This document shows positions 20,107 to 27,205 of a stretch of DNA of 27,218 nucleotides, one piece after another. The notes under the pieces were generated by a model. That model searched no databases and was not told the DNA's origin. It worked only from the letters and a program-made list of their open reading frames with translations. The position numbers and the translations under genes are program-made. Numbering within the stretch: position 1 is the first letter of the stretch; the number at the start of each line of letters is the position of its first letter. The stretch is taken from IMG/VR virus record IMGVR_UViG_3300042291_001104, positions 1 through 27,218 of that record; one strand, written 5' to 3'. Source of the stretch: a virus.

Positions 20107-21021
20107 ATGACTCTTTTTCCCACCATAAGAAAAACAAAATACCTAAACAACCGAGACCTGTTAGCAGAAATACATCAAAGCAAATGTTCATTTTCCAGTT
20201 TTGAACTGCCTGACTATTCTCAATACGATATTATCTTGCCCAGCTTAGACAAAGTCAATCGACTGACTATTACCGAAGCAAAACGGAATCGAGCAAAACG
20301 TATGGGATTAAGAGCGTTTGCTGTAGCAAGAAACGGTGGGGACAAAAAGATCAAACTTGCTGAGTGTACTCCTGCATACACTACCTTTGCAAAAGAAGAT
20401 GTTATTATTAGAATAATGACATTTGATCATATACCACTTGCACCCGGACGTAAAAAGACTGTAAAAAATACTGCCGACAGTCATGACAAGGTAAACTTTC
20501 CTCCGTTCCAGCACTGGAAATACAATGACAACGATGAACTAGTTTGCGTGGGAAAAAGTCACTGGAAAGGTGATATAACAACTGGTACATTTAGCAAAGA
20601 TCACGGTAGGATCACAGAAAATCTCGGACGTATGTTTATCAAACTCAGTGAACGGTATGCACAACGCAGCAACTGGCGTGGTTATACCTACATTGAAGAA
20701 ATGAAGGGTCAAGCAATTTTACAACTGAGCCAAATTGGTCTACAGTTTGACGAATCAAAATCAGAAAATCCGTTTGCTTATTATACCGCAGCAGTTACCA
20801 ATTCATTTACACGTATATTGAACATTGAAAAGAAGAGTCAAAACATTCGTGATGATCTGCTTGAAGAAGCAGGATTAACTCCAAGTCTTACTCGACAAAA
20901 CAGTCAAGGATACGCAGAAGAAATTGCCCGACAAGCCGAATTGTACAAAAACATGCGTATGCCAAAAAGCGAAGAGATTACCATTGAAGAAGAATACGAC
21001 GACGAAGATAAAACAGCTTGA
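20107..21021 (+). CDS. 55: Late-transcription sigma factor, gp55-like, with about 120-residue insertion
   Basis: The protein has 304 residues; T4 gp55 has 185. The start KTKYLNNRDLLAEIHQSK (residues 9-26) matches the gp55 N-terminus (YVNNKELLQAI in T4). Residues 172-245 match the sigma region 2-like core: LGRMFIKLSERYAQRSNWRG, YTYIEEMKGQAILQL, FDESKSENPFAYYTAAVTNS and FTRILNIEKK, corresponding to T4 FDETKYKNPHAYITQ. Between them lies an insertion of about 120 residues (roughly 30-165) rich in Lys, Asp and aromatic residues. gp55 directs host RNA polymerase to TATAAATA promoters. The C-terminus ends in an acidic EEEYDDEDKTA and I do not see the hydrophobic LDFLYE-like clamp-binding motif of T4. 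The ATG lies 13 bases after an AAGGA; no other ATG lies upstream of the conserved N-terminus. Assignment is confident from the two conserved blocks. Confidence 0.9.
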   Translation: MTLFPTIRKTKYLNNRDLLAEIHQSKCSFSSFELPDYSQYDIILPSLDKVNRLTITEAKRNRAKRMGLRAFAVARNGGDKKIKLAECTPAYTTFAKEDVIIRIMTFDHIPLAPGRKKTVKNTADSHDKVNFPPFQHWKYNDNDELVCVGKSHWKGDITTGTFSKDHGRITENLGRMFIKLSERYAQRSNWRGYTYIEEMKGQAILQLSQIGLQFDESKSENPFAYYTAAVTNSFTRILNIEKKSQNIRDDLLEEAGLTPSLTRQNSQGYAEEIARQAELYKNMRMPKSEEITIEEEYDDEDKTA

Positions 21022-21067: not shown

Positions 21068-22081
21068 ATGGAGTTATTTAAAAAAGTAGCCTGCTTTACA
21101 GATATTCACTTTGGTTTGAAATCAAACAGCACATCACATCTGCGTGATTGTGAAGAATTTGTAGACTGGTTTATTGCAGAAGCCAAAAAACAAGGAGCAG
21201 AAACTTGTATCTTCCTAGGCGACTGGAGTCATAATCGTAACAGTCTCAACTTGTATACACTCGATACCAGCATCAGATGTTTAGAAAAATTAGGTGCTGC
21301 ATTCGAACAGTTCTTTTGGTTTCCTGGTAATCACGATCTGTTCTACAAAGATAAACGAGACATTCATAGTTCAGCATTTGGCAGACATATCCCCGGCGTC
21401 ACTGTGGTTGAAACAGTAACCACCATAGGTGATGTGACCTTGGTGCCGTGGTTGGTGGGTGACGAGTGGAAGTCTATGAAGGATCTCAAAAGCAAATATG
21501 TTTTTGGACACTTTGAATTGCCTAAGTTTTTTATGAATGCCATGGTACAAATGCCAGATCACGGTGAACTTAAAGCCGAAGACTTCGACGGTCCTGAATA
21601 TATTTTCAGTGGACACTTTCACAAACGACAAAACAACAGCAAAGTTGTGTATATCGGCAACGCATTTCCGCACAACTTTGCAGATGCGTGGGACGATGAT
21701 CGTGGAATGATGACTCTAGAATGGGGAGGGGAACCAGAATTCACTAACTGGCCCGACTGTCCCAAGTACCGAACTATCAAATTATCAGAGTTAATTGATA
21801 AAAAAGATTCAATTATGAAAAGCAAGATGCATTTCAAAGTTAATCTAGACATTGATATTAGCTTTGAAGAAGCTAACTTCGTTAAAGAAACGTTTATTAA
21901 CGATTTTGACATACGAGAAATAAGTCTAATCCAAGACAAAACAAATCTTGACGGCACTGTTGATGATAACCCCGATGGAAGATTTGAGAGTGTGGATCAA
22001 ATCGTAACAGAACAACTGGTCAATATCGACAGTGAACAGTTTGACAAGGCAACTTTGCTGGAAATTTATAATAATCTCTAA
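21068..22081 (+). CDS. 47: Recombination endonuclease subunit gp47 (Mre11/SbcD-like)
   Basis: The 337-residue protein shows the metallophosphoesterase motifs of Mre11/SbcD nucleases in order: DIHFG with Asp12 and His14, GDWSH with Asp52, PGNHD at 86-90 with the catalytic Asn/His, GHFE with His148, and SGHFHKR with His183 and His185. These residues bind the two metal ions. Length matches T4 gp47 (339). With gp46 it forms the nuclease complex that resects DNA ends for recombination-dependent replication. It has its own promoter and an AGGAG ribosome site 10 bases before the ATG. Its stop overlaps the gp46 start in TAATG, so the two partners are translationally coupled. Confidence 0.97.
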   Translation: MELFKKVACFTDIHFGLKSNSTSHLRDCEEFVDWFIAEAKKQGAETCIFLGDWSHNRNSLNLYTLDTSIRCLEKLGAAFEQFFWFPGNHDLFYKDKRDIHSSAFGRHIPGVTVVETVTTIGDVTLVPWLVGDEWKSMKDLKSKYVFGHFELPKFFMNAMVQMPDHGELKAEDFDGPEYIFSGHFHKRQNNSKVVYIGNAFPHNFADAWDDDRGMMTLEWGGEPEFTNWPDCPKYRTIKLSELIDKKDSIMKSKMHFKVNLDIDISFEEANFVKETFINDFDIREISLIQDKTNLDGTVDDNPDGRFESVDQIVTEQLVNIDSEQFDKATLLEIYNNL

Positions 22082-23859
22082 TGTTTCGACTTAAAAATAT
22101 AACCGTAAAAAACTTCATGAGCGTGGGTGCTCAGACACAGGCTGTGGACTTTGACAAAGAACACCTAACATTGGTGTTGGGATCCAATTTGGATCTTGGC
22201 GGAGACGACACTGGATCTAGAAATGGAACAGGAAAAACTACCATTATCAATGCATTGAGTTATGCATTGTATGGACAAGCACTAACAAACATCCGCAAAG
22301 AAAATTTAATCAACAAAATCAACAGCAAAGCCATGTTGGTCACTGTTGAGTTTGAGAAGAGCGGCAACAAATACCGCATAGAACGAGGACGCAAGCCCAA
22401 TATTCTCAAGTTGTATGTCAATGACAGCCAGATAAAGACAGACGAAAACGAAGATGACAGTCAGGGAGACAGCAGAGAGACACAAAAAAGCATTGAACAA
22501 ATGCTGGAAATGTCTCATACCATGTTCAAACATCTAGTTGCGCTAAACACTTATACAGAGCCGTTTCTCAGCATGAAGTCTGCGGAGCAAAGAGAAATAA
22601 TTGAACAACTGTTGGGCATTACTTTATTAAGTGAAAAAGCAGAAGCACTTAAATTAGCAATCAAAGAAACCAAAGATTCTATACAAACAGAAGAACTTAA
22701 AATTGCTGCAACCAAAACTGCCAACGAAAATGTTCAAAAAAGTATCGACAGTTTGCATTTGAAAAGCAGTGCGTGGGTTTCCAAACAACAAACAGAATTA
22801 GAGAACTTGGGACGGGCTATTGTTAACTTAGAAGCAGTGGATATAGAAGCAGAACTTGCAGCACATCTTGCACTAAAAGCCTGGGATGAAGAAAATGCTC
22901 GCATCCGTAACTTAAACAAACAAAAAGCCACATTAGAGTCTGCTGTTACCCAAGCAGAAAGAACACTAAAAAAGTATATTAAAGAAATTGAGTCGCTTGC
23001 AGATAAAAAATGTCCTGCTTGTGAACAAGATTTACATGATCACAAGCACGATGAAATGCAAAAGACAGCAGAAGATAACCTGCTGGATGCACAAAAGTAC
23101 TTTGATAAGGTAAACGGAGACCTAGAAAAGATTGTTACAGAGTTAGGAACAGGCGAGCAAGTTCGTAGACCTACAACTTTTTACGAAACAGAAGCCGAAG
23201 CATTGGGTCACAAGAACAATCTTGCCAGTCTCGAAAAAGCATTGGAAGAAAAAGCAGTTGAAAATAATCCGTATGCTGAACAAATTGAAGAATTAAAGAA
23301 AACTGCTATTCAGATTATTGAATGGAACACTATCAACTCGTTGACCAAGTTAAAAGATCATCAAGAATTTTTACACAAACTGCTAACCAACAAAGACAGT
23401 TTTATTCGTAAAAAGATAATTGATCAAAATTTAACGTATCTAAACAAACGACTAACTTATTATATCGACAAACTTGGACTGCCACATCGTGTGGTTTTTC
23501 AAAATGATCTAACAGTTGAAATTACTCAACTGGGTCAAGAGTTGGATTTTGACAACTTGAGTCGAGGAGAACGAAATAGACTGATTCTTTCCATGAGTTT
23601 TGCATTCCGAGATGTTTGGGAAGGACTGTATCAACACATCAACCTGTTGTTTATCGACGAATTAGTAGATGCTGGCATGGATAGTGCAGGTGTTGAAAGT
23701 GCATTGGCTGTGTTGAAAAAGATGGCACGTGAAAGAAACAAAAACATTTATCTAATATCTCACAAGGACGAGCTGGTAGGACGTGTGAACAGTGTGCTTC
23801 GTGTGATCAAAGAAAATGGATTTACCAGTTACAGCAACAACGCCGACTATGTTGAATAA
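22081..23859 (+). CDS. 46: Recombination endonuclease subunit gp46 (Rad50/SbcC-like ATPase)
   Basis: The 592-residue protein is an SMC/Rad50-type ATPase. It has Walker A GSRNGTGKTT at 45-54, then a coiled-coil-prone region (about 180-440) with a zinc-hook CPAC at 311-314, ABC signature LSRGERNR at 493-500, and Walker B LLFIDE at 522-527 followed by the D-loop-like stretch ELVDAGMD. The predicted coils are short, as in T4 gp46 (560 residues). It works with gp47, whose stop codon overlaps its ATG. A His-Asp pattern near 524-565, ending ISHKDE, corresponds to the H-loop. All catalytic motifs look intact. Confidence 0.97.
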   Translation: MFRLKNITVKNFMSVGAQTQAVDFDKEHLTLVLGSNLDLGGDDTGSRNGTGKTTIINALSYALYGQALTNIRKENLINKINSKAMLVTVEFEKSGNKYRIERGRKPNILKLYVNDSQIKTDENEDDSQGDSRETQKSIEQMLEMSHTMFKHLVALNTYTEPFLSMKSAEQREIIEQLLGITLLSEKAEALKLAIKETKDSIQTEELKIAATKTANENVQKSIDSLHLKSSAWVSKQQTELENLGRAIVNLEAVDIEAELAAHLALKAWDEENARIRNLNKQKATLESAVTQAERTLKKYIKEIESLADKKCPACEQDLHDHKHDEMQKTAEDNLLDAQKYFDKVNGDLEKIVTELGTGEQVRRPTTFYETEAEALGHKNNLASLEKALEEKAVENNPYAEQIEELKKTAIQIIEWNTINSLTKLKDHQEFLHKLLTNKDSFIRKKIIDQNLTYLNKRLTYYIDKLGLPHRVVFQNDLTVEITQLGQELDFDNLSRGERNRLILSMSFAFRDVWEGLYQHINLLFIDELVDAGMDSAGVESALAVLKKMARERNKNIYLISHKDELVGRVNSVLRVIKENGFTSYSNNADYVE

Positions 23860-24163
23860 GAGTCTTGAACATTACAAAGCACTGTATTCAAAATATGTAG
23901 ATGCTCATGTAAGTCTACATAACTACCATACAGTCTTTGTTAAACACTTAGGTTTAGATTCGTCTATTGGACTTCGTAAGTCCATAAGAGAATTGGCATT
24001 ACTTGAAACTGAACTTAAAAAAGCTGTACGAGCTGCATTTGAAGAAGACAAAGCAATCAAAAAGGCTGCTGGTATTAAAATAAAAAAACAAAAATACAGA
24101 AATACCAGTGGACTTGGAAAAAATTTAATAAAAAAACCCAAAAATGTGGACTTACCAGAATGA
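23849..24163 (+). CDS. Small basic protein of unknown function
   Basis: The 104-residue protein (from the ATG at 23849) begins MLNKSLEHYKALYSKYVDAH. It looks all-helical up to about residue 75 and ends in a Lys-rich tail (IKIKKQKYRNTSG and KKPKN), which suggests nucleic-acid binding but does not prove it. It overlaps the end of gp46 by 11 bases and the following GIY-YIG gene by 20 bases. An earlier in-frame ATG at 23816 would add 11 residues and has a weak AAAG upstream; neither start has a good ribosome site. Position after gp46 might suggest a recombination accessory such as UvsY, but I see no UvsY signature, so no function is assigned. Confidence 0.7.
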   Translation: MLNKSLEHYKALYSKYVDAHVSLHNYHTVFVKHLGLDSSIGLRKSIRELALLETELKKAVRAAFEEDKAIKKAAGIKIKKQKYRNTSGLGKNLIKKPKNVDLPE

Positions 24164-24569
24164 AGAAATTTTAGAATTGCCCGAAGATTGTGTGGGGTTT
24201 GTATATCTTATAACCAACACTACCAATCATAAAAAATACATTGGTAAAAAATTAGCAAAATTTAGTAAAACGACCTACAAGACTGTGAAGTTGAAGAACG
24301 GCACCAAGAAGAAAAAGAAAATTAGAAGTAAAATTGACAGCGACTGGCAGGAATACTACGGGTCCAGCGTTGAACTATCCAAAGACATTGAAACTTTGGG
24401 CCGAGACAAATTCACCCGCGAAATATTATACTATTGTAAAAGCAAAGCAGAAACATCTTACATTGAGGCCCGCGAACAATTCGACCGCAAAGTATTAGAA
24501 TCCAATGACTACTACAATGGACAGATTTCTGTCCGTGTACATGGCTCCCATATAAAAAACAAAATTTAG
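24144..24569 (+). CDS. GIY-YIG endonuclease (Seg-like)
   Basis: The 141-residue protein has the GIY-YIG layout: VYLIT at 20-24 replaces the GIY strand and KYIGKK at 31-36 is the YIG strand. A Lys-rich insert (50-63) follows, then WQEYYGSS (69-75), ELSKDIETLGRDKFTREILY, and EAREQF with Glu108 in the place of the catalytic Glu, ending in DYYNG (122-126). This pattern is common in small free-standing phage enzymes of the Seg group, which cut DNA and promote their own spread. No separate DNA-binding domain is visible beyond the core. It overlaps the preceding gene by 20 bases and abuts the structured noncoding region, whose first helix includes its stop codon. It could alternatively be a domesticated nuclease with a phage role. 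Confidence 0.85.
   Translation: MWTYQNEEILELPEDCVGFVYLITNTTNHKKYIGKKLAKFSKTTYKTVKLKNGTKKKKKIRSKIDSDWQEYYGSSVELSKDIETLGRDKFTREILYYCKSKAETSYIEAREQFDRKVLESNDYYNGQISVRVHGSHIKNKI
24551..24558 (+). promoter_or_regulatory. Possible late promoter for the structured RNA
   Basis: TATAAAAA differs in one base from the late box TATAAATA. It lies inside the last codons of the GIY-YIG gene. If the box covers -13 to -6, transcription would start near 24564, one base before the first helix of the structured region. Confidence 0.45.
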
Positions 24570-25015
24570 GCTCAGTTAGACAGTAAAGGCAAGCGCAAGC
24601 CAACATCGTGCGCCCTAAACCTGGATCTCGGATCACAGGGACGGAAATCTCTTGCTGTCAAGAGTGCTCAATCAGTATCCTTTACAGGACCACGATCGCA
24701 AAATGCCTGCGGTTTGATTGTTTGAATAGAGTGAATATAGGCCCAATGAAGGGAGAAAAACCCTGCGTTTATGTATGTGTTAGCGTATATACATAAGCTG
24801 CCGTCGAATGAAGACGCAACTCGAGGTACCGTGCGACCGCCTCTGTAATTGTTGTAACGCTAAGTGACTTGTCGAACTCAGATAATGTCTTTTTTGCCCG
24901 TAGCAGGGCGAAATGTGACCATTGAATCTAGATAATATTTAAAACTACTTCGTAGTATCAATGTGAAACAATTGCTCTGAGCGCGAGCGAAAGAGCAAAC
25001 GAACGCAGTTCGTTT
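24565..25015 (+). ncRNA. Candidate large structured noncoding RNA, family not recognised
   Basis: This 451-base stretch has no credible gene and is locally GC-rich (25 of 40 bases at 24801-24840). Helices seen, with 5' and 3' arms: TTTAGG 24565 / CCTAAA 24614; CCTGGATC 24620 / GATC-A-CAGG 24631; CTCTTG 24649 / CAAGAG 24659; a three-way junction closed by CAATCA 24669 / TGATTG 24715 with arms TCCT/AGGA and CGCA/TGCG; TTATGTAT 24769 / ATACATAA 24789, whose loop pairs as a 7-bp pseudoknot with 24857-24863; CGTC 24802 / GACG 24813; GAGG 24823 / CCTC 24840; TTTTGCCC 24892 / GGGCGAAA 24906; CATTGA 24920 / TCAATG 24958 enclosing ACTAC/GTAGT; TTGCTCT 24972 / AGAGCAA 24992 with a GCGA tetraloop; AAACGAAC 24997 / GTTCGTTT 25008. 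A G-T pair and the GNRA loop favour the plus strand. I find no tRNA, tmRNA, RNase P or group I intron core. It could instead be a long leader of the next gene. Confidence 0.6.
24997..25015 (+). terminator. Perfect 8-bp hairpin at the end of the structured region (possible terminator)
   Basis: AAACGAAC and GTTCGTTT pair perfectly around GCA. Only a short TTTAT tract follows, so it is a weak intrinsic terminator at best. It may mark the 3' end of the RNA or insulate it from the late promoter that begins on its last base. Confidence 0.35.
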
Positions 25016-25022
25016 ATAAATA
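25015..25022 (+). promoter_or_regulatory. Late promoter, perfect TATAAATA
   Basis: TATAAATA is identical to the T4 late promoter box recognised by gp55-bound RNA polymerase. The expected start is near 25028, 18 bases before the ATG at 25046. A modest ribosome site (CGGAA, 25035-25039) lies in the leader. The box begins on the last base of the preceding hairpin. Confidence 0.8.
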
Positions 25023-25045
25023 ACGGATACTTTTCGGAATATACA

Positions 25046-27205
25046 ATGGATATTAGAACCTTATTAACCCGAGTAGATGTGATTGAAAACAATCAACTAT
25101 CTCTTAAAAAATACCTATCAGAGAGTTTATACAATACTCCTGAGATGCAATTGCATTGGAAACGTATCGACGAAGGATTTGTAAGAGGATATGAAAAGTA
25201 TCTTGCAGAAGTTGCTCTAACTCCTGATCAAATTCAAAGTATCTTCAAACAAGCATCGGGTGGTGCTGCGGCAGGTGAAGCACCCAAGGATCCTGGAAAG
25301 TTAGCTGCACTTGTAGATAAAGTGCTGCCTGCAGATCAAGCAGGTGCTTTAGAAAAGACATTGCCTGCTCCAGATGCAGGTCCAGTTCAAGGTTTTGAAC
25401 AAAAAGCCGCAGCAGCGGTACAGAACATTCAAGGTGCAGACCCAGCAACTAAACAGAGTTTGATGCAGTGGATCAAGCAAGGTGTTTCCAAACCTGAAAC
25501 ACAACAGTTGATTTTGGCCGCAGTAGGTGCTGGTGTTGGTAGTTTGATCAGCAAAGTTGGTCCTATACTGAGCATGATTCCAGGTGGTGGCCCAGTTGCT
25601 GCTGCTGTAACAGGTGCAGTCATTGCTGGTGCTGTGTCAGTTGCCAGTGCTAAAATGCAAGGTAAAGATTGGAAGACAGCATTTAAAGGTGCCATCAAGC
25701 CGGCATTGATGGGCGGCGCCAGTGCTGTTATTGGTAACTTGGCCACTACTGCTATCAGTGCAATGACTGGTGGCAATAGCACGCCTGATCAAGCACAACC
25801 GCCCGGAGCATCAGTAAGCATGGGTGATAAGATGCCCGATGGTTCAACAGTTACTGGACTAGAAGGTGGACAAGTTACTGTAACTCGTCCTGACGGTACA
25901 TCAGAAACCATGTCAAATCAAGATTATTACGGCAGAACAGGACAACAAGGTATTGCAGATCCAAATGCCGCTCCTGCAGATTCTGACAAGCCAAAAAGAC
26001 AACTGCCTCAGTGGGCACAAGACCTACAAGATAAACAAAAGACAATTGACGATTTTGCAAACAGAATGGGATTACCTCCTGGTAAGCATGATGTGCAAAT
26101 GCAAGGTGGTGTACCTGTAAGCATTGACGGACAACCTGTTCCGCAAGAGTTATACAATCCACAGCAACAAAGAAACATACAAGCCGCACAACAGATGTCG
26201 GCTATGAATGCCAATAGTGCAGCGATACAGAGCGGTGAAAATCCTAATGCTGATACTTTTAGAAAACAAGCACAAGATCAAGTTGCACTAAATCAACGTA
26301 TGCAGACACAAACAGATGCAGGTGGCATTGGTAAAAACTTTGATGCAGGCATTGCACCCATTGGTGCAAATGGACAACCAATGCGAGCAGTCCCAATGGA
26401 TGAACCGACAATAGGTAGCAATTTTAATGCCGGCATTGCACCTATTGGTGCAAATGGACAACCGATGCGAGCAGTTCCAATGGATGAACCTGCAACTGGA
26501 AGAATGCCCGGTGAAACACCACCTGGAATTAATCGCTTAACAGGTAAACCTTTTGAACCTGCTCCTGCATGGGATCAAATGACTCCTGATCAACAAGCCG
26601 CAGTCACAGCAAGACAACAACAGCAAGCCGCTGATGCTGCCGCAGGAGCACAGAATGCTAAAGACTACTGGGCTAATAAAAATCCCAACACTCGTGGACT
26701 AAAAGAAAGTTTTGCAGAGTCTAAGTATGTTGACAAGCAAGCAACTCTACGCAAGTGGTTGGTTCAAGAATCAAAAGGTCAGCGTATACATGGCCTACAG
26801 TTAAAAGCAACTGTTAAAGAAGGCATCATGGATTCTATCAAAGGAATGTTTGGTGGAGGGAAGAAAGGTGTTGCTCCAGCCGCAGGTGGCGTTACTGCTG
26901 ATGCATTAAACAAAGCATGGGCCACAGCCGGCAGTCCAACCGACAGCGAAGAAGTTGCCAAAGTATTACAAAGTGCAGGCGTTCCTGCAGAAACAGTTAC
27001 TAAAGTATTTGCAGATTTAAAACTTCCACCTCCGGGGTCTCCTGAAACATCCGCAGAAGAACCTGCTAAACCGGGCGAAACACCAGCACCGACTGAACCA
27101 GAAGCACCAGCTGCTGGTAAGGTAAATATCGATGAATTGGTTGCACAAATTAATAAACTTGCACCAGCCGACAAACAAAAAATTATAGCCGCGTTACAAG
27201 GATAA
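25046..27205 (+). CDS. Late-expressed protein of unknown function, probably virion-associated
   Basis: The 719-residue protein is not recognised. The N-terminus (MDIRTLLTRVDVIENNQLSL, to about residue 60) looks helical and charged. Residues about 154-250 are a Gly/Ala-rich hydrophobic region (LILAAVGAGVGSLISKVGPI; VAAAVTGAVIAGAVSVASA; SAVIGNLATTAISAMTGG) that resembles glycine-zipper or membrane-inserting segments. Residues about 250-430 and 490-570 are Gln/Pro/Asn-rich. Two tandem 28-residue repeats occupy 431-486. A charged helical segment (RGLKESFAESKYVDKQATLR) follows near 552-571, and the C-terminus ends with a short helix (VNIDELVAQINKLAPADKQK). A perfect late promoter and a start 24 bases after it indicate late expression, so a virion, internal or ejected protein is plausible. 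No enzyme motif is seen. Confidence 0.85.
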   Translation: MDIRTLLTRVDVIENNQLSLKKYLSESLYNTPEMQLHWKRIDEGFVRGYEKYLAEVALTPDQIQSIFKQASGGAAAGEAPKDPGKLAALVDKVLPADQAGALEKTLPAPDAGPVQGFEQKAAAAVQNIQGADPATKQSLMQWIKQGVSKPETQQLILAAVGAGVGSLISKVGPILSMIPGGGPVAAAVTGAVIAGAVSVASAKMQGKDWKTAFKGAIKPALMGGASAVIGNLATTAISAMTGGNSTPDQAQPPGASVSMGDKMPDGSTVTGLEGGQVTVTRPDGTSETMSNQDYYGRTGQQGIADPNAAPADSDKPKRQLPQWAQDLQDKQKTIDDFANRMGLPPGKHDVQMQGGVPVSIDGQPVPQELYNPQQQRNIQAAQQMSAMNANSAAIQSGENPNADTFRKQAQDQVALNQRMQTQTDAGGIGKNFDAGIAPIGANGQPMRAVPMDEPTIGSNFNAGIAPIGANGQPMRAVPMDEPATGRMPGETPPGINRLTGKPFEPAPAWDQMTPDQQAAVTARQQQQAADAAAGAQNAKDYWANKNPNTRGLKESFAESKYVDKQATLRKWLVQESKGQRIHGLQLKATVKEGIMDSIKGMFGGGKKGVAPAAGGVTADALNKAWATAGSPTDSEEVAKVLQSAGVPAETVTKVFADLKLPPPGSPETSAEEPAKPGETPAPTEPEAPAAGKVNIDELVAQINKLAPADKQKIIAALQG
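26336..26503 (+). repeat. Two tandem 84-base repeats (28 residues each)
   Basis: The units begin at 26336 and 26420. Each encodes N-F-(D/N)-A-G-IAPIGANGQPMRAVPMDEP plus four further residues. The proteins are nearly identical while several third-codon positions differ (for example accc/acct, ccaatg/ccgatg), so the duplication is not brand new. Confidence 0.9.

Follow-up and report, generated by a model that had tools for sequence, protein, structure and literature searches.

A large structured RNA beside the SegE gene of freshwater T4-type phages, with relatives in candidate chromosomal satellites

Large RNAs are known in phages, and their functions are not. In the lytic phage ICP1 and its parasitic satellite PLE, a noncoding RNA is the most abundant transcript of each (PMC7567579). 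Polynucleobacter-1 (RF01718) is an uncharacterized candidate of 2010, graded in a table of Weinberg et al. (PMC2864571) as 'probably RNA, probably cis-regulatory, switch unclear' and listed for Burkholderiales and for fresh water or estuary, with the entry 'cis-reg: y'. That report is the only paper we found that names the accession, and its text mentions neither a phage context, nor a linkage to SegE, nor an element context.

The window, i.e., the whole stretch of 27,218 nucleotides that was analyzed, is a 27-kb virus record of a T4-type phage, carrying a gp55-like late sigma factor, gp47/gp46 and baseplate genes; the phage is a freshwater T4-type virus of bacteria. The original prediction placed in it a large structured noncoding RNA, located between a nuclease gene and a late gene. 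The locus is composed of the following features:

20107..21021, plus strand: gp55-like late sigma factor gene (phrog_12791, E 5e-80)
21068..23859, plus strand: gp47/gp46-like recombination nuclease genes (phrog_100, phrog_77), in the same gene row, upstream of the RNA
24144..24569, plus strand: SegE-type GIY-YIG endonuclease gene, 141 aa, directly 5' of the RNA (Pfam PF19835 SegE_GIY-YIG, 113 bits, cut-off 25)
24575..25015, plus strand: full-length structured noncoding RNA of about 440 nt, 5' end approximate (covariation; nhmmer full-length profile at 24580-25017, 402 bits, the source window itself being among the profile's own sequences)
24588..24723, plus strand: 5' domain of the RNA, Rfam RF01718 Polynucleobacter-1 (113.1 bits, gathering cut-off 37, E 4e-24)
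25015..25022, plus strand: T4-late-type box TATAAATA (motif TAAATA/TATAAATA) after the terminal hairpin, probable promoter of the next gene
25046..27205, plus strand: variable downstream gene, 719 aa in the source phage (open reading frame)

The predicted chain of helices is present in the interval bounded by the stop codon of the GIY-YIG gene (24569) and the next ATG (25046), and the observation as a whole is partly confirmed. A conserved protein reading through the region, named at the outset as evidence against an RNA, was not found: positions 24570-25045 hold no conserved protein frame, and insertions in homologues are not multiples of three. The 719-aa product of the downstream gene matched none of the Pfam and PHROG families searched.

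Folding energy alone was rejected as evidence for structure, as it is not significant (z = -0.92 on the plus strand, with 17 of 100 shuffles folding as well). Covariation was assessed in 47 non-redundant homologues, i.e., sequences below about 90% identity; the column-pair analysis picked nested complementary runs, and the pairs were counted on a separate alignment of the same 47 sequences. Changes on both sides were found in 68 of 96 pairs, compared with 44 ± 3 in shuffles that ignore relatedness, none of 500 being as high, and the number of cells with such changes was 573 versus a shuffled mean of 168. The covariation score was 0.387 versus 0.165. Paired cells amounted to 89.9%, versus 33-46% with partners slid by 1-3 columns, a control that keeps relatedness but tends to favor a structure derived from these very sequences. 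Many distinct compensatory types occur (e.g., GC/CG/UA/AU at 24817-24854), and descent alone is therefore an unlikely cause. Positions 24575-25015 are thus a conserved folded noncoding RNA, in which about 18 helices and three pseudoknots (24579-83/24655-59, 24780-85/24858-63 and 24803-06/24834-37) are supported:

24579..24664, plus strand: P1 (24579-83/24655-59), a pseudoknot into the loop of P4 (24649-52/24661-64); covariation, 24580-24658 AU18/UA11/GC9
within 24579..24664, plus strand: P2 (24593-97/24609-13) and P3 (24621-27/24631-38), inside P1; covariation, 24597-24609 CG23/AU20/UA3
24669..24720, plus strand: P5 (24669-73/24716-20; 100% paired, two-sided changes in 4/5 pairs), enclosing P6 (24678-80/24687-89) and P7 (24694-99/24709-14)
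24750..24798, plus strand: P8 (24750-53/24761-64) and P9 (24767-78/24787-98; two-sided changes in 11/12 pairs)
24780..24863, plus strand: pseudoknot PK1, P9 loop 24780-85 with 24858-63; 98.2% paired, two-sided changes in 5/6 pairs, CG28/UA19
24803..24854, plus strand: pseudoknot PK2 (24803-06/24834-37; 95.2% paired), P11 (24817-20/24851-54; 98.4% paired, GC32/CG8/UA6) and P12 (24823-26/24840-43)
24892..24913, plus strand: P13, hairpin between the twin heptamers described below, inner CC/GG near-invariant, outer pairs variable; 63-79% paired
24944..24997, plus strand: P14 (24944-47/24953-56) and P15 (24973-78/24992-97, inner pairs 24981-82/24987-88); P15 96-100% paired, all pairs with two-sided changes
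24998..25014, plus strand: P16, terminal hairpin and probable RNA 3' end; covariation, 14 sequences out of register there

This exceeds the at least ten helices and one pseudoknot that had been claimed; the proposed check by homologue alignment and compensating changes came out in favor of a large structured phage RNA, and the interpretation is, overall, partly supported.

The RNA had at first been assigned to no known consensus; its 5' domain proved to have one. Positions 1-141 of the RF01718 model are complete at 24588-24723, the score lies above the curated cut-off, and the consensus helices are kept by compensatory change, with P2, P3, P5 and P7 covarying in the 47 homologues. The ends of the 141-nt model are not the ends of the RNA, as conservation and covariation run about 290 nt further 3', and membership stands because the Rfam model is a fragment of a longer RNA. 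The model covers about a third of the real molecule and the remaining part is absent from Rfam; since the 5' third is RF01718, the proposal of a novel class holds only for the rest. RF01718 is the sole gathering-level Rfam match in the whole window. As the prediction had advised, GOLLD, ROOL, tmRNA, group I/II introns and RNase P were considered as well; none matched, and all were rejected, with only RF01718 above chance in Rfam over the region. The GOLLD and ROOL models gave no match on 24400-25200 even at E up to 5, and ARAGORN detected no tRNA or tmRNA in the window.

Homologues were collected with a conserved-core pattern, which yielded 34 and later 72 IMG/VR contigs; the samples are metagenome and IMG/VR contigs, and pattern-based collection favors close relatives. 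In the aligned IMG/VR homologues conservation extends to the terminal hairpin at 25014. The full-length profile gave matches spanning most of the profile, or all of it, at about 100 loci, many of them collected via the neighboring protein and not via the RNA, and a model from 24797-24940 alone independently recovered the outlying phage variants L103, L140 and L029. Ten phage records each hold one copy. A nucleotide search of INPHARED gave no match for this RNA (type 1), for its chromosomal relatives or for the type 2 RNA introduced below, and no RNA-bearing isolate was found; a search of PLSDB gave none for the chromosomal or type 2 RNA. Isolated SegE phages of marine Methylophilales, Variovorax, Acidovorax, Sinorhizobium and Synechococcus showed no RF01718 match near SegE.

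Among 68 phage contigs found by RNA sequence alone and holding enough upstream DNA, SegE ends at most 150 nt before the RNA core motif in 62; the RNA is usually a neighbor of SegE within one group of T4-type phages. Such tight adjacency, together with SegE at most 2.6 kb upstream of the type 2 RNA in 64 of 70 contigs, would suit an RNA that works with or guides the SegE GIY-YIG nuclease, much as omega RNAs do for IscB/TnpB. Neither partner is obligatory, however, because sister phages have SegE without the RNA (no RNA was detected at 22 of 65 distinct SegE loci, in most of which the next gene overlaps the SegE stop) and Polynucleobacter-like chromosomes have the RNA without SegE. SegE was rejected as an obligate partner on these grounds, and the obligate nuclease pairing of omega-type guide RNAs is not seen here. 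In addition, no variable guide segment was seen at the two ends of the RNA, and the matched variable segment, an internal twin heptamer, is not enriched in five phage genomes. A partner or guide of this kind appears very unlikely.

On the 3' side, a TAAATA/TATAAATA box follows the RNA in 65 of 74 distinct copies, and a co-directional gene comes next wherever the contig extends far enough; in 9 of 74 the next gene is convergent and the box is absent. The kind of downstream gene varies between phages. Because the next gene varies, usually owns its box and can be convergent, the phage RNA forms a unit of its own, whichever gene comes next and on whichever strand. Late-type boxes had been predicted on both sides of the RNA. 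The downstream box exists and most likely serves the following gene as its promoter, whereas the upstream 'atataaaa' falls inside SegE codons, and TAAATA was found within 120 nt upstream in none of 97 phage copies. In phages the RNA ends the gp47-gp46-SegE row without an upstream late box, and the simplest view is that it is made by read-through from the gp46-SegE genes; the predicted late transcript is not supported there and is plausible for the chromosomal elements considered below, where TAAATA lies upstream of every copy.

The RNA might alternatively regulate a neighboring gene in cis, as its leader or as an element of its 3' UTR, as guessed for Polynucleobacter-1 in the 2010 table (PMC2864571), and in most phages it does sit just after SegE and just before a gene. 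A leader requires a conserved co-directional downstream gene, and this was not observed: different phages have different genes there, usually served by a late box of their own beyond the RNA and sometimes convergent, and in the elements the RNA is followed by a different open frame or by one on the opposite strand. On the 5' side, SegE also occurs without the RNA and was not found in three element-bearing genomes, a result that is provisional because no control genome matched in that search. We consider cis-regulation quite unlikely.

The genes 3' of the RNA form a hypervariable cargo slot; unrelated ones often share the N terminus M[KR]IxEL..E / M[KR]IxEL(I/L)xE, whose resemblance, by eye, suggests a capsid-targeting leader cut by the prohead protease.

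Burkholderiales-type genomes also contain RF01718, and within one Polynucleobacter-like genus (that of G470) it occurs in 13 of 151 genomes, some of them with two copies. In the integrated elements of these lake bacteria, the gene order around the copies (L182-L194, L211-L226) is conserved and comprises a divergent DUF6641 gene, the RNA, a variable cargo slot, a 188-aa tyrosine recombinase, two unknown genes, an AAA ATPase and a 424-aa integrase. A T4-late-type TAAATA box lies 25-84 nt upstream of the RNA in 23 of 23 chromosomal copies, which are not all independent; the background frequency, counted over both strands, is about 0.7 per kb. The box forms GCTAAATA, ACTAAATA and TATAAATA agree with late promoters of the T4 family, among them the published Aeh1 variant with a/gC at -13/-12 (PMC2988020). 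The AAA ATPase is related to T4-type clamp loaders (phrog_168, E 5e-20). When it was compared with a set of phage proteins, it matched a single one in each of two RNA-bearing phages, which we take to be the clamp loaders of these phages. The T4-late-type boxes, the two tyrosine recombinases and the clamp-loader relative make these elements candidate satellites of T4-type phages. As the phage copies have no upstream late box, the timing of expression may differ between phages and elements. The phage 3'-domain covariance model gave no significant match at the right place in the chromosomal copies; putative homology of their 3' domain to that of the phage is based on collinearity, on the RF01718 match in the 5' part and on the twin motif. 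DUF6641 was found neither in INPHARED nor in IMG/VR.

Among the cargo genes, one (L214) is AbiEi-like according to PADLOC and lies on the opposite strand, 541-1092 nt after the start of the RNA match; the other element cargo genes tested matched no Pfam family. The palindromes TGTCGTTTTAAACGACA and TGTCCTTTTAAAGGACA recur between genes (L191, L213-L225 and their flanks), also outside the element, and are perhaps host uptake, operator or terminator signals; TGTCGTTTTAAACGACA was rejected as an element end, being present in host flanks too.

In sister phages the place after SegE that the type 1 RNA takes holds a different large structured RNA of about 430 nt, type 2 (L114 4424-4860; also L064, L087, L088, L057 and L263-L342), for which no Rfam match was obtained at E up to 1. 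A pattern search located it in 108 IMG/VR contigs, and it has covarying helices of its own. A third variant, L103:4420-4830, has a 3' domain that matches type 1 (65 bits) and a different 5' domain without an RF01718 match.

The 3' domain of the type 1 RNA contains two identical heptamers on either side of P13:

24880..24886, plus strand: twin heptamer copy 1, AGATAAT, in the context ACTC-N7-G; equals copy 2 at three variable positions in 47/47
24930..24936, plus strand: twin heptamer copy 2, AGATAAT, in the context ATCT-N7-A; parsimony counts about 20 changes, all of them matched in copy 1

The variable positions hold G/A, G/C/A and A/G, and at each of them both copies are the same in all 47 phage RNAs; L120 is exceptional in differing at the otherwise fixed position 24886 and at 24887. 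On a parsimony tree built from the remaining alignment columns, each copy underwent 11+3+6 changes and the two jointly the same number, i.e., each change was mirrored; recombination may inflate this count, but no fewer than five changes are required to produce the six matched N7 types. The flanks are fixed but different (ACTC versus ATCT before, G versus A after the heptamer), which makes gene conversion an unlikely cause of the identity. The RNA contains no consistent complement of the heptamer. Chromosomal RNAs keep the twin rule with other letters (AGCGAAA, AACAAAA, ATCAAAA, AGAGAAA); the two copies clearly disagree in L222 and L226 and differ by one or two letters in L182, L183 and L217, and the second copy in L184 is AGCAAAA. 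Type 2 RNAs keep twin heptamers in 30 of 34, mostly as ACATGAA. We know of no mechanism that explains two identical heptamers changing in step, and homo-paired, like-to-like intramolecular coupling has, to our knowledge, not been described for natural RNAs. Two readings remain: either the heptamers are in contact with one another, or both bind a single partner, which is not the same in every phage.

Such strict equality of two segments would also suit a symmetric contact within an RNA-only oligomer, similar to GOLLD and ROOL, which form nanocages, and OLE, which forms a dimer (PMC12286853). An assembly of this type is one form of the scaffold explanation given below and overlaps it; the large size, the pseudoknots and the single copy in phages are consistent with it. 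On the other hand, neither its sequence nor the Rfam models relate the RNA to GOLLD, ROOL or OLE, it is smaller than the former two, and it is accompanied by no tRNA in the window, so we hold oligomerization to be rather unlikely. The direct repeats, 50 nt apart, could instead be twin protein sites on DNA, with the locus acting mainly as a DNA signal (for instance an origin of replication, or an anchor for recombination or insertion) and transcription being incidental. The variable cargo slot starts just 3' of the RNA in both phages and elements, and nuclease genes are reported to border exchange regions, with SegE driving non-reciprocal exchange (PMC10448857). Watson-Crick covariation in about 18 helices and three pseudoknots, however, marks a folded RNA and not protein sites on duplex DNA, which leaves a DNA signal as an unlikely explanation.

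Our preferred explanation, which we regard as reasonably probable, is a stand-alone, trans-acting structured RNA of about 440 nt that serves as a scaffold during infection and is common to phage and candidate satellite; the function is inferred. In the phage, the RNA would be made by read-through of the gp46-SegE row and would end at hairpin P16, while in the element it would start from a box read by the RNA polymerase carrying the helper's gp55. Acting in trans, its pseudoknotted core may present the heptamers to each other by homo-pairing or to a single two-fold partner, and if this partner differs between phages, each substitution would be needed in both heptamers. Helper and satellite would each carry their own version, either as both need the RNA or as the satellite competes for the partner. 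SegE would act apart from this function: as a homing nuclease, it would move the RNA and the neighboring cargo slot from phage to phage, in line with the exchange activity cited above. More tentatively, and with less than even confidence, we hypothesize that the RNAs of the SegE locus, type 1 including RF01718 as well as type 2, could constitute one trans-acting superfamily of T4-type phages and chromosomal satellites, whose core would be co-evolving heptamers that are homo-paired (in parallel or otherwise) or dock one symmetric partner.

The occurrence of one RNA family in lytic T4-type phages and in apparently phage-dependent integrated elements provides a natural genetic test of the role of the RNA, and the identity-coupled heptamers are an unusually sharp experimental handle. 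New here are the placement of RF01718 in phages, as about a third of the real molecule, and a second RNA type, without an Rfam match, at the same locus in over 100 contigs.

Compared with Polynucleobacter-1, the phage RNA is alike in the sequence and structure of 24588-24723 and in its freshwater, Burkholderiales distribution, including a Polynucleobacter-like genus; it is unlike in being about three times longer than the 141-nt model and in having P1, two pseudoknots towards its 3' end, the twin heptamer and terminal hairpins, none of which the Rfam pairing covers. With GOLLD and ROOL it shares the character of a large ornate RNA of phages and prophages, but it is about 440 nt long versus 600-800 or more, lies outside a tRNA island at a single locus beside SegE and matches neither model. 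The omega RNAs of IscB/TnpB (HEARO) likewise are structured RNAs adjoining a nuclease gene, whereas SegE and the present RNA each occur without the other and no gene for an RNA-guided nuclease was recognized nearby. In ICP1 and PLE, noncoding RNAs are carried by a lytic phage and by its parasitic satellite, as they are here by phages and candidate satellites; the two RNAs of that pair were described as different transcripts, whereas here phage and element share one family.
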